NCBI RefSeq assembly: GCF_000275865.1
Contig: NZ_CM001555.1
Coordinates: 2,320,967 to 2,384,966 of the forward strand
Length of the DNA: 64,000 bases
From: Methanofollis liminatans DSM 4140
GTDB taxonomy: Archaea > Halobacteriota > Methanomicrobia > Methanomicrobiales > Methanofollaceae
Reading direction: 5' to 3'
The translations under genes were made by a program, and so were the position numbers. Under the pieces are notes generated by a model. It ran no database searches, had not been told where the DNA came from, and saw nothing but the letters and a program-made list of their open reading frames with translations. Positions 35,688 to 42,756 of the stretch are shown here, piece by piece (position 1 is the stretch's first letter; every line of letters begins with the position of its first letter).

Positions 35688-35804
35688 CAGGCCAAAAAAA
35701 AACACCTGATTTCAGGCCATGACAGGGAGGGGCAGGGCGCGAAACGCCGGGGGTCAAAACAGTTAATGGATCCCGCGACAAGATCATATGAAATCTGGTG
35801 TCTT

Positions 35805-36752
35805 ATGGAATCAAACAGGGAAGAGTGCGGGGATCCGGTCAGACAGGTCCATCTGAACCCGGACATGACCGTCGACGGGCTGGTCCGCGCCATCGCCGGT
35901 GCCGGGGCATACAACGGCGGGTCGCTCGCCCGCGCCGTCGACATCTATGAGGCGATGCTCCGCGACGAGAAGGCGACGAAGTTTTTCGGGCTCGCAGGCG
36001 CCATGGTTCCTGCAGGCATGGGGAGGATCGTCAGCGATCTCATCGAACAGGGTCATATCGACATTCTGGTCTCGACCGGCGCCAACCTCACCCACGACAC
36101 CATCGAGGCGATCGGCTGCCACCACTACCACGGCACCGCCGTCTGCGACGACGTCGAACTGCGTCACGAGGAGATCAACAGGATCTACGACATCTTCCTC
36201 CCGGACGAGGCCTTCATCCACTTCGAGGAGTTCATGCAGGAGTGCCTCTCAGATATCCCGGACAGAACGACGCTCTCGATCTCAGAACTCCTCCGCCACA
36301 TCGGCTCCCACCTGAAGACTGGCATCCTGGCGGCGGCGGCAAAGAACGATATCCCGGTCTTCTGCCCGGCCGTCCAGGACTCGATGCTCGGTCTGCAGTT
36401 CTGGTTCTACAACCAGGCGCACCACATCACCATCGACGCCTTCGGAGACATGAAGACGATCATCGACCGGTGTTATGCGGCAGAGCACGCCGGGGCGTTC
36501 CTGGTCGGCGGCGGCGTGCCGAAGAATTTCATCTTCCAGAGCAAGATGATCACCCCGGACGGCTTCACCTACGCTGTCCAGCTCACCGGCGACCGCCCGG
36601 ATCTCGGCGGGCTCTCGGGCGCCACCCTTGCCGAAGCGCAGTCCTGGGGGAAGATCAACGAGGACGCCGCGGCGGTCACCGTCTACGGCGACGCCACGAT
36701 CACCCTCCCGGTGATCGCGGCGGCGGTGCTGGAGAGGCTGAAACATGACTGA
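35805..36752 (+). CDS. dys: Deoxyhypusine synthase
   Basis: A 315-aa enzyme that transfers an aminobutyl group from spermidine to a lysine of aIF5A. The family segments are DGLVRAIAGAGAYNGG, GLAGAMVPAGMGRIVSDLI, VSTGANLTHD, and the active-site region VGGGVPKNFIF with the conserved Lys, then GGLSGATLAEAQSWGKI. The start is ATG 35805 (MESNREEC) or ATG 35766, which adds 13 residues and has GGGGG 12 bases upstream. The stop overlaps pyrF by 8 bases, so the two are translationally coupled. Confidence 0.94.
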   Translation: MESNREECGDPVRQVHLNPDMTVDGLVRAIAGAGAYNGGSLARAVDIYEAMLRDEKATKFFGLAGAMVPAGMGRIVSDLIEQGHIDILVSTGANLTHDTIEAIGCHHYHGTAVCDDVELRHEEINRIYDIFLPDEAFIHFEEFMQECLSDIPDRTTLSISELLRHIGSHLKTGILAAAAKNDIPVFCPAVQDSMLGLQFWFYNQAHHITIDAFGDMKTIIDRCYAAEHAGAFLVGGGVPKNFIFQSKMITPDGFTYAVQLTGDRPDLGGLSGATLAEAQSWGKINEDAAAVTVYGDATITLPVIAAAVLERLKHD

Positions 36753-37380
36753 ACTCATCCTCTCCCTCGACGTGACCGGCCTCAAAGAGGCGCTCCGGAT
36801 CGCCGGCGCCTGTGCCCCTGAGATCGATGCGATCAAGGTCGGCTACCCCCTGGCGCTCGCCGCCGGCCTCGGGATCGCCGGAGAACTCGCCGGGTTCGGT
36901 CTCCCCCTCATCGCCGATTTCAAAGTCGCCGACATACCGAACACGAACACCCTCATCTGCGAGCAGGTGTTTGCGGCCGGGTTCTCGGCGGTGATCGCCC
37001 AGGGCTTTCCGGGTCCTGACTCGGTGGCCGCCTGCGTGGAGGCCGCTCATGCCCACGGCGGCGAGTGCTACGTGGTCGCCGAGATGAGCCATCCCGGCGC
37101 CCTCACCTTCTTCTCGGCAGGCGTGCCCGAGCGCCTCTGCGAGATCGTCGCAGAGACCGGCGCCGACGGGATCATCGCCCCGGCGACCCGGCCCGAACGG
37201 GTGCGAGCGCTGCGTGCCCTGATCGGGAAGAAGAAGATCCTCTCACCTGGCATCGGCGCACAGGGCGGGGACCCGGCAGAGATCGCTCCCCTCGTCGACG
37301 GGATGATCGTCGGGCGCTCTATCTACGGCGCCGCCGACCCCGCGGCCGCCGCCCGGACCTACGCACCCTACCGCCGATGA
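36745..37380 (+). CDS. pyrF: Orotidine 5'-phosphate decarboxylase
   Basis: A 211-aa TIM-barrel enzyme that makes UMP from OMP in pyrimidine synthesis. The catalytic network is visible as IADFKVADIPNTN (Asp, Lys, Asp), with ELILSLDVT at the N-terminus, ILSPGIGAQGG and MIVGRSIYGA for phosphate binding. The length is normal for archaea. The ATG lies inside the end of dys. The reason for coupling to deoxyhypusine synthesis is not evident beyond possible shared growth control. Confidence 0.95.
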   Translation: MTELILSLDVTGLKEALRIAGACAPEIDAIKVGYPLALAAGLGIAGELAGFGLPLIADFKVADIPNTNTLICEQVFAAGFSAVIAQGFPGPDSVAACVEAAHAHGGECYVVAEMSHPGALTFFSAGVPERLCEIVAETGADGIIAPATRPERVRALRALIGKKKILSPGIGAQGGDPAEIAPLVDGMIVGRSIYGAADPAAAARTYAPYRR

Positions 37381-37588: not shown

Positions 37589-39169
37589 TCAGGAAAGGTT
37601 CCAGATCTGAGTCCCGATGCCCCTGATCGAGAGCCTCAGGTAGACCCCCGCCGGGTCGACCGACTCCGGCACCTCGAAGACCAGATACCCGGACGAATAA
37701 TCCGACCGGTCGATCGAGGTCGACGCATAGACCGAGCCTATTCCTCTCATGTAGGCCGACGGCTGAGAGGGCCTGTACTCCTCTCCGCCGGCGATGAGGG
37801 TGAAGTCTGTCGGGGACGGTGTCCGATATTTCGAACTCCCACCGCCATAATAGCCGATATGGTTGACCTCCATAAGCACGAAGAGGTACTGCTTCCCATA
37901 CGGGGCCTGGTAGACCTTCACATCGGCACCGGTACCTGCCTCGAAACTCTTCCAGGTGGTGGTGGACCTGGGCCGTACCGAGATCTTGTTCACCTGCCTC
38001 GTATCCATGAAGCGGTACGGCTCCCCGATCTTCAGAGCGTCGGGATAGATCTCCGTCGTCTGCAGGGTGAGGGTCGTGTCCTCGATCGTCCTGAGGTTCA
38101 TCCCCTCGAGAGCGGCGTTGAGCGAGTCCTGCCCTTCGGCGAGATAGGTGTTGCCGAGGGCGATATGGTCGGTGTCGGCGAAGGTGGCGCCATACCAGAT
38201 CGCTGAACCCGCCCGATCATAGCTCTCAAAGGCCTCGACGAAGCGGGCCTTCACATGCTCAAGGCCGTCGGGCACGGCGTACGCCCTGAACTCTGCGGAA
38301 CAGGACTTCGCGCTGCCCGTTAGTTCCATGGCGAGTTTCGAAACGGTGGCATAGTCCTGGTCGCCCGCCCTTATGGACATCTCGCTCACCGTCGATGCGA
38401 TGCTCGACGCCGCCTCTGTTCCGGCGTTTTTGAGCGTGTCGTAGTCACAGGGGACCTGTTCTTTCGCCTCGGCCTCCTGCAGGGGCTCCATCGCCGCCTC
38501 GGGATCTTCGTACGGAACACCGCTGCCCCGGACTACAGCGTCAGACCAGTCGGCACAGCGGATATAGGACGAGCCGTCCCATCCATTCCCGAACCTGGAC
38601 GCATCTTTTGCCGTGAGGATGAACTTGGAAGTGTACGCCCCGGTGCGTTTTTCCCTGAAAAACACAGCAACAAAAGCGGTTTCCCCCTTCAGATCGCCGG
38701 AATAGAAGGCTTCGGCGATGCGGGTGGCATCAGCCTCATGGCCCCAGAGCGATCCGGCGAGGAGATCCCTGGAGGCGTTCATGACGACATCGACCTTCAC
38801 CGCCTGACTGCGGCCCATATGCGCGGGGTCGGCGAGGTCGGCATCCGTGATCACCTCGAAGGTCGAAACGGTGATACCCGATGCTCCTGCACCTGCGCCC
38901 GAGAACCGATCCCTCGTAATATCTACCAGATATTCGGCCATTGCTGCATAGTCGCCGGGGTCAGGGGGCGAAAGAGTTGTCTCAGGCGTCGCCGCGGCGG
39001 CCTCTTTACCAAGGAGAGGATTTATGTCGCCCACGCTCCCGTTCCCCACGCCGAACGGCGGGAGTTGCAGCCCTGCGGGATCAGACCATCCCGCCGCAGG
39101 CGCGGCACAGAGGAGGATCAGCACCAGCGCAAGGGCCGGGACATGCAGGCATATGGTATGGTACTGCAT
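37589..39169 (-). CDS. Secreted protein with C-terminal DUF4352-like domain
   Basis: A 526-aa protein with a signal peptide: MQYHTICLHVPALALVLILL followed by CAAPAAGW, so export and cleavage near residue 27 are likely, possibly as a lipoprotein. The first about 370 residues show no family I recognise; they contain an alpha/beta part and a helical segment rich in Ala and Glu. The last about 130 residues (from WKSFEAGTGADVKVY) are beta-rich and resemble the telokin-like/DUF4352 fold common on archaeal surface proteins. ATG 39169 is chosen because it opens the signal peptide. It is divergent from the NrdD-like module. Confidence 0.75.
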   Translation of the reverse strand: MQYHTICLHVPALALVLILLCAAPAAGWSDPAGLQLPPFGVGNGSVGDINPLLGKEAAAATPETTLSPPDPGDYAAMAEYLVDITRDRFSGAGAGASGITVSTFEVITDADLADPAHMGRSQAVKVDVVMNASRDLLAGSLWGHEADATRIAEAFYSGDLKGETAFVAVFFREKRTGAYTSKFILTAKDASRFGNGWDGSSYIRCADWSDAVVRGSGVPYEDPEAAMEPLQEAEAKEQVPCDYDTLKNAGTEAASSIASTVSEMSIRAGDQDYATVSKLAMELTGSAKSCSAEFRAYAVPDGLEHVKARFVEAFESYDRAGSAIWYGATFADTDHIALGNTYLAEGQDSLNAALEGMNLRTIEDTTLTLQTTEIYPDALKIGEPYRFMDTRQVNKISVRPRSTTTWKSFEAGTGADVKVYQAPYGKQYLFVLMEVNHIGYYGGGSSKYRTPSPTDFTLIAGGEEYRPSQPSAYMRGIGSVYASTSIDRSDYSSGYLVFEVPESVDPAGVYLRLSIRGIGTQIWNLS

Positions 39170-39368
39170 CGGACTATCATATGCAAATGGGGCAGAAATA
39201 GATTCTCCCACCAGCGACAGAGAGGGATGCCAAGGCCCGGACATAAAGAATTTAAACCTCTTTTTTGCTGTTTCATGACGAAAAAAACGACCGAACAGGT
39301 CAGGCGAACAGGGAGAGAGCCCCGACTATCCAGACAGGTTTTATAATCTGGACGGGCAAGTCTTACGC

Positions 39369-39731
39369 ATGCAGTGGAGCGAAGAGCACCTGGCCCTGGC
39401 GCGTAAATACCGGAAGCTTGAAGAGATACCAGTCGAAGAGCGGCGCTACAAGTGCCATACCTGCAACCATGTGGTGGAGACCAGCCCCTGCCCGGTTTGC
39501 GGCGAGACCCAACTCGAGATCATGTGCCCGCTCGACCACACACACTGCTCCCACGATATCGTTTCAGGCATCGAGTACTGCCCTCTCTGCGGCGAACCTG
39601 TCTGCCCCGAGTGCGGATCCCACGACGTCTCCCAGATCAGCCGGGTCACCGGCTATCTTCAAGACGTCTCCGGCTGGAATGCCGGAAAACAGCAGGAACT
39701 CAAAGACCGGATCAGGTATACCGTCGCATGA
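39369..39731 (+). CDS. Stand-alone zinc and glycyl-radical C-terminal module of class III ribonucleotide reductase
   Basis: A 120-aa protein. Four CX2C-type pairs are visible (CHTC, CPVC, CPLC, CPEC). The last about 40 residues match the C-terminus of anaerobic ribonucleotide reductase NrdD: CPECGSHDVSQISRVTGYL, where RVxGY is the loop holding the radical-bearing Gly, followed by WNAGKQQELKDRIRY. The catalytic barrel of NrdD (about 500 residues) is absent, and the gene begins with its own ATG and N-terminal helix, so it is not an obvious 3' fragment. It may be a spare glycyl-radical subunit, like GrcA/YfiD for pyruvate formate-lyase, or a zinc protein derived from NrdD. Its stop overlaps the cbiZ start (ATGA). 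Confidence 0.75.
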   Translation: MQWSEEHLALARKYRKLEEIPVEERRYKCHTCNHVVETSPCPVCGETQLEIMCPLDHTHCSHDIVSGIEYCPLCGEPVCPECGSHDVSQISRVTGYLQDVSGWNAGKQQELKDRIRYTVA

Positions 39732-40624
39732 GATATTTTTTCACGGGAGACACTATTTTTGTCCGTGGTGACTTCAGGGCGGCAAGCACCGGCGTCAATG
39801 GCGGCAGCCGCCCGGCGTCCACCATTTTCAACCATACCGTCCCCGGCAACTTCGATCACGCAGATCCATTCCGGTACCTCTGGCAGATCGCCACGGCCGC
39901 AGGATTCGGGGAGGATTTCTTCGGCCTGTTGACCGCGGTGCCGATGCGCCACCTCTGCATCCTGCAGTATGATTTTATCACGGTTTTCATCACCGCAGGC
40001 GTCACGAACCCGAACCCGGACCCGACCGCACCCCATACGATCAACATCATCGTCGTCTCGCGCGAAGGCCTCTCTGACGGAGCGCTCCTGGAGACGATCG
40101 TCACGGCAACCGGGGCAAAGGCCCACGCCCTCGGCCTGATGAAATACCCCTTCACCGGGACGACGACCGACGCCGTCGTCGTGGCGTCCGAGGGCGAAGT
40201 GCGCCACACCTATGCCGGTACCGCCACCGAGGCGGGTCGGCGGGTCTACGCCGCCGTGGCCCGCGGGGTGCAGGAGGCGCTTGACCGGCAGGAGGGGCGG
40301 ACGGTGCGGGAAAGACCGTCGTTTTTTATTTTCAGCCGCTACGGCGGCGACCACTGGGTGGAGTGGCGGCCTGAAGGCTGCCCATATTATCCCTGCCATT
40401 TCGAGGGGCAGGTCTGCGACTTCTGTTACTGCCCCTATTATCCCTGCCATGACAGCGAACTTGGAGAATGGGTGAAGAGCTCCTCGGGCGGTCAGATCTG
40501 GAGTTGCAGCACCTGCACGCTCCTCCACGAGCCCGGGGTCGCTGCCTACTTTAAAAAGAATCCGGAAGCCTCGCTTCCGGAGCTGAAAAAATACCGGGTC
40601 TCCCTGAAGGAAGACCCACAATAG
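39728..40624 (+). CDS. cbiZ: Adenosylcobinamide amidohydrolase CbiZ with C-terminal Cys-rich domain
   Basis: A 298-aa protein. Residues about 1-200 match CbiZ, which hydrolyses the aminopropanol side chain of adenosylcobinamide to give adenosylcobyric acid for cobamide salvage: ASTGVNGGSRPASTIFNHTV, then VFITAGVTNPNPD, HTINIIVV and a C-terminal GTTTDAVVVAS. Residues about 225-275 form a cysteine-rich small domain (CPYYPCHFEGQVCDFC, CPYYPCHD, CSTC) that also occurs elsewhere next to or fused to CbiZ in methanogens. Methanogens need cobamides for Mtr and corrinoid methyltransferases. It is translationally coupled to the NrdD-like module. Confidence 0.92.
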   Translation: MRYFFTGDTIFVRGDFRAASTGVNGGSRPASTIFNHTVPGNFDHADPFRYLWQIATAAGFGEDFFGLLTAVPMRHLCILQYDFITVFITAGVTNPNPDPTAPHTINIIVVSREGLSDGALLETIVTATGAKAHALGLMKYPFTGTTTDAVVVASEGEVRHTYAGTATEAGRRVYAAVARGVQEALDRQEGRTVRERPSFFIFSRYGGDHWVEWRPEGCPYYPCHFEGQVCDFCYCPYYPCHDSELGEWVKSSSGGQIWSCSTCTLLHEPGVAAYFKKNPEASLPELKKYRVSLKEDPQ

Positions 40625-40944: not shown

Positions 40945-42756
40945 ATGGATCTATCCGAAGTAGCAGAAAGAATCTCCCGGAAGTTTTCGTCCATGAACGT
41001 GGAAATCGACCCGGCCCTCGCCGAAAAGAAGCTCCGCACCCTTGTCGAGGAGTTCGGGGTGAACATCCCTGAGGCCGAGAAGACGGTCACCGAGAACCTG
41101 GCGAAGGAGCACAATCTCTCCCTCTCCCCCTCCTCTTCCCCCAGAACAACGACGGAACGGGAGATCGGCGGACTTGTGACCGGAGAATGGGTGACGATCG
41201 AGGGCCTGGTGGTCTCGCTCACCGTCCCGCCGACCGATGCAATCGCCCAGAGCGGTGTCATCGCCGACGCCTCGGGTGCGATTCAGTTTACGATGTGGTC
41301 CCGGGCCGGCCATGAGCCCCTTGTGGCCGGGCAATGGTATCGCTTCGAATCTGCAGTGGTGGACGAGTACCGCGGTGTTCCCAAGGTGAACCTCCACCAG
41401 GGCACCACGATCACGCCCATTGAGGGTAAAAAATCCTTCACTCCAAAATATACCGGTGTCGCCGATTTAAAGCCCGGAATCGCAAGCGTCAGGGTGAAGA
41501 TGCTCCAGGAGTGGGAGAACAGGCACGAGCGGATCCTCCAGACAGGGCTTGTCGGCGACGGGAGCGGCAGGATAAAGTTCACCATCTGGAAGGAGGAGGG
41601 GAAAAAGCCCCTCGCTCCAGATACCGTCTACGCAATCCATTATGCAACCGTCGAAGAGTACCAGGGGCGCCTGTCGATCACCCTCAACACCGCGGACTAT
41701 TCTGTGGCCGAGGGGGGGATCGAGGTCGTCTCCGGGCCTTCCACCCCGATGAAAAAAGAGACCGTCACCGGCAAAGTAGTTACCCTCACCACGGCGACCA
41801 GCCCATCCATCGCCCAGACCGGAATTATCGCCTACCCGGAGGGCGCCATGACCTTTGTAGCATGGGAGCGTTCCGGCGCCCCGGCCATGGAGTACGGGAA
41901 GTGGTACAGGCTTGAAAACGCCTCTATCGACCAGTTCAGGGGAGCACCCCGGGTGAACATCGGGGAGGGGACGAGCGTGATCGAGATCGAGAGCGACACC
42001 CCGATTGTTCCCGCCGTGATCCCGGTTTGCGACCTCGCCCCCGGCGTTGCAAGCGTCAGGGTGAAAATGGTGCAGGAATGGGAGGCCAGACACGAGCGGA
42101 TCCTCCAGACAGGGCTTGTCGGCGATGAGTCCGGCACCGTGAAGTTCACGATCTGGAAAGAGGAAGGTGTCGAGCCCCTCAGCCCGAACATGGTCTACAC
42201 TATCTACTATACGACCGTCGACGAGTACCAGGGGCGCCTCTCCATCACGCTGAACGGGGCGATGGTCCTCGCCGAGGAAGGCGCCACCCTTGAAGTCGGG
42301 ACCGGCGGCATGACGCTCACCGGTGCAATCGTGAATATCGGCCCGGGCTCAGGGCTGATCAAGCGCTGTCCGGTGGAGGGGTGCAACCGCGTCCTCTCGA
42401 AGCGAAATTACTGCCCGGTGCACGAGGTGCAGAACGACTTCAGATATGACCTGCGGATCAAGGCGGTGCTCGACGATGGCGTGAAGGCGCACAACATCCT
42501 CATGCAGAAGGAGGTTGTTGAGGCGGTGGCAGGCCTGACCCTGGAAGACGCCGTGAAAACCGTGCAGGAGAGCCCGCTCGGGATGGACGACATCTTCTAC
42601 CGCCTGCGCGACGCCCTCATGGGCAGGTATTACGCATGCAGGGGCGGCGACCTTGGCGACACCCTCCTGGTAAAGGAATGCACTCCCCTTGGTTTCGACG
42701 GGGAGCAGCATGCTGCTCTTCTCAACCGCCTCGGAGGTGAGATCAATGCCAGCTGA
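40945..42756 (+). CDS. rpa: Replication protein A with four OB folds and zinc finger
   Basis: A 603-aa single-stranded DNA-binding protein. After a helical N-terminus (1-70), four OB folds alternate as A-B-A'-B'. Units B and B' (about residues 178-250 and 367-439) are close copies, sharing RVKMxQEWExRHERILQT and YQGRLSITLN, offset 189 codons. A zinc finger (CPVEGCNRVLSKRNYCPVH) lies near residue 480, followed by the RPA C-terminal OB region. It protects ssDNA in replication and repair. It overlaps its partner gene by 11 bases. Confidence 0.94.
   Translation: MDLSEVAERISRKFSSMNVEIDPALAEKKLRTLVEEFGVNIPEAEKTVTENLAKEHNLSLSPSSSPRTTTEREIGGLVTGEWVTIEGLVVSLTVPPTDAIAQSGVIADASGAIQFTMWSRAGHEPLVAGQWYRFESAVVDEYRGVPKVNLHQGTTITPIEGKKSFTPKYTGVADLKPGIASVRVKMLQEWENRHERILQTGLVGDGSGRIKFTIWKEEGKKPLAPDTVYAIHYATVEEYQGRLSITLNTADYSVAEGGIEVVSGPSTPMKKETVTGKVVTLTTATSPSIAQTGIIAYPEGAMTFVAWERSGAPAMEYGKWYRLENASIDQFRGAPRVNIGEGTSVIEIESDTPIVPAVIPVCDLAPGVASVRVKMVQEWEARHERILQTGLVGDESGTVKFTIWKEEGVEPLSPNMVYTIYYTTVDEYQGRLSITLNGAMVLAEEGATLEVGTGGMTLTGAIVNIGPGSGLIKRCPVEGCNRVLSKRNYCPVHEVQNDFRYDLRIKAVLDDGVKAHNILMQKEVVEAVAGLTLEDAVKTVQESPLGMDDIFYRLRDALMGRYYACRGGDLGDTLLVKECTPLGFDGEQHAALLNRLGGEINAS

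Follow-up and report, generated by a model that had tools for sequence, protein, structure and literature searches.

A stand-alone glycyl-radical module as the probable missing subunit of a split class III ribonucleotide reductase in Methanofollis liminatans and related methanogens

In class III (anaerobic) ribonucleotide reductase (RNR), the glycine that carries the radical has so far been regarded as built into NrdD itself. In Methanofollis liminatans DSM 4140 it appears instead on a separate small protein, raising the question of what this protein does and with which partner. To address this we analysed a 64,000-nucleotide stretch of the genome (the window) and followed its 120-aa product into the rest of the genome, the order Methanomicrobiales, the phylum and viruses. 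The original prediction, made from the window sequence, described the protein as the radical module of NrdD without its barrel, possessing its own start and N-terminal zinc knuckles, proposed it as a spare part for RNR, and linked it through the adjacent cbiZ gene to cobalamin and the class II enzyme.

The radical module and its partner in the genome

The module gene is an ATG-initiated open reading frame on the plus strand (Table 1). A Pfam search matched PF13597 (NRDD) to module residues 68-117 (E=6e-15, profile positions 508-562 of 562) and TIGR02487 matched over model positions 542-581, the NrdD glycyl-radical domain making up the final ~50 residues of the 120-aa chain. Only these class III models were matched, and not the pyruvate formate-lyase (PFL) radical domain PF01228. 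Residues 77-117 were aligned by phmmer with Prevotella copri NrdD, whose radical domain comprises residues 676-739, and the module's RVTGYL fell on the radical Gly711/Tyr712. Gly95 corresponded to chain position 715 of the 743-residue construct, which equals Gly711 of the 739-residue protein assuming a four-residue N-terminal tag (the tag is inferred). The profile match and this alignment bore out the identification as a detached NrdD radical module.

Conservation was evaluated in 30 module orthologues spanning the order. Among 120 columns 51 were invariant, including ten cysteines: six in the N-terminal zinc-ribbon part (C29, C32, C41, C44, C53, C60) and four in the zinc site of the radical domain (C71, C74, C79, C82). 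The N-terminal part was absent from full-length NrdDs when compared with their C-termini, and the predicted own start and additional zinc ribbons were supported, together with the invariance of the radical glycine and the cysteines. The most conserved regions were the RVTGY radical loop and the WNxGKxxELxDR tail, and the radical glycine was invariant in every host and viral module aligned. Orthologues across the order shared 66-95% identity, and dN/dS within genus was 0.07-0.11, indicating strong purifying selection. The AF2 model of the module alone was of medium confidence (pLDDT 72.6), and a fold search with it gave no informative match. Judging from its order-wide presence, invariant columns, low dN/dS and TATA-like box, the module is neither a chance open reading frame nor a decaying gene.

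Table 1. Coordinates of the module gene, its elements and neighbours in the window, and of the corresponding viral gene rows
Feature	Position	Strand	Evidence or remark
Deoxyhypusine synthase	35766..36752	+	PF01916; conserved block member
pyrF (orotidine 5'-phosphate decarboxylase)	36745..37380	+	PF00215; conserved upstream neighbour of module
TATA-like box TTTATAA	39340..39346	+	~29 nt 5' of module ATG
Predicted stand-alone glycyl-radical subunit of class III RNR (split NrdD)	39369..39731	+	PF13597, TIGR02487, 30-orthologue core
N-terminal zinc-ribbon part (C29, C32, C41, C44, C53, C60)	39453..39554	+	invariant Cys; not in full-length NrdDs
Zn site CPLC-x4-CPEC (C71, C74, C79, C82) of NrdD radical domain	39579..39614	+	
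RVTGYL loop (R92-L97)	39642..39659	+	radical-site Gly95 codon 39651-39653
C-terminal tail of NrdD radical domain, WNAGKQQELKDRIRY	39675..39719	+	
cbiZ (adenosylcobinamide amidohydrolase)	39728..40624	+	PF01955 E=1.2e-37, PF04071 E=1e-27
RPA-type single-strand DNA-binding protein	40945..42756	+	OB-fold Pfam matches; conserved downstream neighbour
Viral module-redoxin-body rows	L270:3490-6260; L268:3324-6073		

The M. liminatans genome (2,475,100 bp, one contig) was searched for full nrdD, nrdG and nrdJ genes as the original prediction had suggested; NrdG2 and NrdJ were present and nrdD was found in truncated form only. PF13597 matched exactly two complementary pieces, the window module (508-562) and a body (profile positions 1-510) at C1:2009982-2011697 (E=2e-134). 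This body, the only NrdD of the genome, is a 727-aa open reading frame located 348 kb from the module and unlinked to it, and scored 472 bits against TIGR02487 (cut-off 326). It ends in ...TQIGYFAFTRDLTVSLKRYKEYHGSRKVPGQLEVDAPTEA and has no zinc site and no radical glycine. Up to ...GYFAFTRDLTVCL it was 66-70% identical to 761-839-aa full-length NrdDs from other families of the phylum. Beyond that point the full-length proteins continue with CxNCGS..(V/I)..SR(V/I)TGY..V.GWN..K.QEL.DR.RY, whereas the bodies of the order carry an unconserved tail of ~30 residues; the AF2 model of the M. liminatans body has a disordered tail. Residues C185, C411, C414 and C415, the finger-loop and beta-A cysteines, were invariant over split and full-length NrdDs and the NxN flap was kept. 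The finger-loop QCCA matched the published QCCR/A motif of subtype NrdD3 (PMC9669993), and the best PDB fold matches of the body were class III RNRs.

The other expected components were also located. An 89-aa CPNC redoxin is encoded just upstream of the body gene and the activase NrdG2 was found at C1:855457-856263 (TIGR02495 144 bits, over the cut-off, with a CxxxCxxC motif). Directly downstream of the body lies a DUF1786 protein gene (G000:C1:2008866-2009897; L001:385-1416, minus strand) that Pfam labels a putative pyruvate formate-lyase activating enzyme. NrdJ is encoded by a separate single-frame gene (C1:2135663-2138395), and its 1100-aa frame with a gap between model pieces probably contains an intein. 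PF01228 had no match in the genome and we rejected a role for the module in another glycyl radical enzyme on this basis. As the radical domain lies off the barrel chain and the body ends near model position 510, we consider this a split variant rather than an ordinary NrdD. Module and body very probably form one naturally split class III RNR, with the module as the radical-bearing subunit.

Distribution and gene neighbourhood in Methanomicrobiales

We sampled 199 genomes of the order, 132 of which were near-complete (at least 90% complete). In this near-complete subset 118 genomes had both pieces, one had the body only (G085, 93% complete), one had the module only (G194, 90% complete, 810 contigs) and 12 had neither, meaning that both occurred in about 118 of the 120 genomes having either. 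The body ended near model position 510 wherever its C-terminal end was listed among the 199 genomes, the exception being G001, in which the split NrdD is accompanied by another NrdD that is divergent and full-length (L094, G001:C1:590703-592373; a 569-aa frame with RVSGYL and a YFTTGKK tail). For many nrdD bodies of the order the open frame extends to 1200-1700 aa and the Pfam match is broken, probably by inteins. With both pieces found order-wide, the module did not turn out to be the 3' remnant of a frameshifted nrdD in a few strains.

All 12 genomes with neither piece belonged to a single genus (g16), which we take to be Methanocorpusculum, one member being presumably Methanocorpusculum labreanum. 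PF02867/NrdJ was kept in these genomes, and NrdG2 was detected in 0 of 10 genomes of the genus compared to 12 of 12 genomes with the split enzyme. Body, module and NrdG were thus lost together in this genus. Ten near-complete genomes with both pieces (G155, G112, G124, G158, G059, G151, G047, G076, G096, G148) had no match to PF02867 or TIGR02504. One of them, G155, is a single contig that we assume to be Methanospirillum hungatei JF-1, and G112 matches CP121470.1, Methanoregula sp. SKADARSKE-2. As no class I or II RNR was detectable in these ten, the split enzyme is their presumed RNR and, within the limits of the search, should make their deoxynucleotides, with a divergent enzyme or salvage being possible. 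The apparently sole RNR of some methanogens would then bear its radical glycine on a separate chain.

The gene neighbourhood was compared across the order. A TATA-like word was present at 28 of 55 orthologous loci compared to 4.1 in shuffles, and the box in the window points to a leaderless module transcript from its own promoter. The cbiZ ATG overlaps the module TGA stop (ATGA), an arrangement of translational coupling, and an xTGA overlap at the module stop was seen at 45 of 55 loci. Module and cbiZ belong to an order-wide block (deoxyhypusine synthase - pyrF - module - cbiZ - (DUF1858) - RPA - RPA) in which cbiZ lies next to the module at 112 and pyrF at 110 of 124 compared loci. CbiZ of the window additionally ends in a Cys-rich zf-like domain (PF04071). 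Between pyrF and the module a 551-aa protein is encoded on the minus strand (37589-39244), possibly secreted and with no Pfam match, and among the related loci it was seen at only three, from Methanofollis or the genus of the window.

The predicted link through cbiZ held in part. Coupling and synteny were conserved order-wide, but the proposed tie to class II RNR was rejected as the presence of NrdJ does not track the module: the module-cbiZ pair was kept in genomes without class II RNR (L093, L102), the genus retaining NrdJ has lost its module, and the stand-alone modules detected beyond the order or at the viral loci inspected lay elsewhere than in the cbiZ block. The coupling therefore appears to be conserved synteny that does not track the B12-dependent reductase, and a tie to NrdJ is not supported.

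Stand-alone modules outside the order and in viruses

Among the NrdD matches listed by a search of the phylum, nearly all full-size ones from beyond the order reached model position 560-562, the few shorter ones listed were in draft contigs, and the module-like matches mostly corresponded to C-termini of full-length NrdDs. Eleven sampled genomes outside the order combined a stand-alone module of ~88-130 aa with a full-length NrdD and had no truncated body: seven in genus g63 of family f8 (G247, G481, G443, G373, G235, G227, G284), and G365, G471, G298 and G321, comprising one of f8 genus g48, one of family f36 and two of family f24. Eight of the eleven were Methanosarcinaceae-like. We take G373 to be Methanococcoides burtonii; G481 is fragmented and its full-length NrdD was seen in pieces. 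The class III RNR of Methanosarcina barkeri has been studied before. Sitting beside a full-length NrdD, the modules of these eleven genomes are real spare-part candidates.

The surroundings of several modules outside the order were also noted. In G443 a gene for a ferredoxin-thioredoxin reductase beta chain is found on the other strand, ~540 bp away from the module (L236:3902-4186 and L236:4726-5082). In G321 (f24) genes for an MvhD/FlpD-type subunit and a molybdopterin oxidoreductase come after the module in the same orientation (L242:2521-4970). A module copy in G252 (L243:4926-5255) departs from the family in the tail after WL and is probably decaying, beside an intact NrdD.

These eleven genomes bear on the proposal made for M. 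liminatans itself, that the module replaces the oxygen-damaged radical domain of a complete NrdD as YfiD/GrcA does for pyruvate formate-lyase. Spare parts have been validated only for PFL and speculated for other glycyl radical enzymes (PMC8683613), and the arrangement found outside the order is the one such a role calls for. M. liminatans, however, has no NrdD with its own radical domain to repair, the module is universal in the order except where it was lost with body and NrdG, and no oxygen-stress genes stand out beside it. With its sole NrdD truncated, we rejected a spare-part role in M. liminatans as very unlikely. Since the only NrdD of the genome is without a radical domain, the module would be an obligate part of the split enzyme.

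Viral sequences were searched for the same components. At least seven IMG/VR virus contigs (L248-L254), the records possibly being fragments, carried a stand-alone module (51-63% identity) with no barrel in the record; that of L249 was flanked by phage recombination, exonuclease, helicase and ParB genes. These barrel-less modules are a possible virus-borne subunit for the host RNR, which could boost host dNTP supply. Two further contigs, L268 (127.7 kb) and L270 (135 kb), encoded a module, a small CP(N/K)C redoxin and a truncated body consecutively and in the same orientation. The 97-aa module of L270 ends in an overlap with the start of the redoxin (ATGA), and in this contig the body is followed by a ferredoxin-thioredoxin reductase beta chain. 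That exactly the missing parts are neighbours here is the strongest indication of a single enzyme. The other viral NrdDs found, five in all, bear their own radical domain. Among the annotated records shown, a phage tblastn search returned only the C-termini of ordinary phage or bacterial NrdDs. Two short PHROG families, phrog_29160 (158 positions) and phrog_4218 (333 positions), each closing with an NrdD C-terminus, match the viral module and may hold more detached radical domains or split phage nrdD genes.

The origin of the pieces was assessed using trees. Host and viral split bodies grouped together in a quick tree (98). The free search of a careful barrel-only tree did not recover this group, and a barrel tree holding the split bodies together was 2.97 lnL better than the free tree (p-AU 0.66); the barrel tree is thus compatible with one origin of host and viral split bodies, and is no proof of it. 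For the modules, a 44-column radical-domain tree is compatible with a single origin as well as with more than one (p-AU 0.36), while a longer radical-domain tree separated the stand-alone modules (97) using extra columns that are not homologous to the full-length rows.

Taken together, the three settings could be states of one exchangeable radical protein: a repair part beside an intact NrdD in Methanosarcinaceae-like and other genomes outside the order, an obligate subunit in Methanomicrobiales, and a virus-borne subunit that activates or takes over the host barrel. We offer this series tentatively, giving it slightly less than an even chance. If true, the series would make visible how a spare part became an obligate subunit, and it would speak to the open question of spare parts for glycyl radical enzymes besides PFL.

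Proposed mechanism, remaining alternatives and known systems

Strong sequence evidence points to a single split enzyme: complementary pieces, their conservation, co-occurrence and co-loss, the viral operons, and the lack of another detectable RNR in some genomes. In the proposed mechanism the 120-aa module would supply the missing zinc-bound glycyl-radical domain in trans, associating with the body without a peptide bond, and the extra N-terminal zinc ribbons probably bind the body in place of the lost covalent tether. The radical-SAM activase NrdG would abstract a hydrogen from Gly95 of the docked module, the radical would pass from Gly95 to the finger-loop cysteine in the barrel and on to the ribonucleotide, and the CPNC redoxin encoded directly upstream of the body would re-reduce the active site. 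A possible benefit is that O2 cleavage at Gly95 would destroy only a 13-kDa, easily replaced subunit.

Two other functional explanations for a separate module were considered. Inteins appear common in the 1200-1700-aa nrdD body frames of the order, and a split intein could join body and module post-translationally into one conventional NrdD chain. The body tail, though, is merely ~30 unconserved residues, the module begins directly with its zinc ribbons (97 aa in total in L270), and inspection of both chains, done by eye rather than by profile, found no intein fragment or conserved splice junction, making trans-splicing highly improbable. The conserved cbiZ coupling in most of the order and the extra zinc ribbons could also fit a zinc-ribbon protein merely descended from an NrdD C-terminus and serving another role, such as regulating cobamide salvage with cbiZ. 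We regard this as equally improbable, as the best-conserved elements, RVTGY and WNxGKxxELxDR, matter only inside an NrdD barrel, the cbiZ block does not house the modules found beyond the order, and two viruses encode the module next to redoxin and barrel. That the module, lacking a barrel, is a non-functional remnant of a broken nrdD has a negligible likelihood given its order-wide conservation, strong purifying selection, promoter-like element and a distribution unlike that of a remnant.

A split class III RNR made of two separable proteins would make loading, activation and exchange of the radical domain directly testable. Domain-based annotation may give each half the name 'anaerobic ribonucleoside-triphosphate reductase' or overlook the smaller. 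In a search of the openly accessible literature we found no description of a class III RNR whose radical domain is encoded by a different gene.

Compared to the known class III NrdDs (structures from P. copri, T. maritima, T4 and S. thermophilus; subtype NrdD3), the split enzyme shares the barrel, the finger-loop Cys pair, the beta-A Cys, the NxN flap, the Zn/Gly radical domain, an NrdG-type activase and a redoxin adjoining nrdD, but it carries the radical domain on a chain of its own, extended by an N-terminal zinc-ribbon part. The PFL spare parts GrcA/YfiD and phage T4 Y06I are likewise small stand-alone glycyl-radical proteins expected to dock into a barrel lacking one, and Y06I is virus-borne as well (PMC8683613). 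The module differs from GrcA/YfiD in belonging to another enzyme family (PF13597, not PF01228) and in its partner: PFL keeps its own radical domain whereas the NrdD of M. liminatans has permanently lost it, which points to an obligate subunit and not to one used for repair. Split class II RNRs have been described (PMC9669993), and NrdJa/NrdJb of Pseudomonas aeruginosa similarly pairs a barrel chain with a C-terminal zinc-binding chain (PMC4520616); class II, however, uses adenosylcobalamin and no glycyl radical, and the module's partner is not a class II barrel. Phage nrdD genes split by introns and homing endonucleases also hold the NrdD coding sequence in more than one piece (PMC3653736), but these are interrupted at one place, while here the split lies at the domain border and is order-wide, with pieces hundreds of kb apart in M. 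liminatans.
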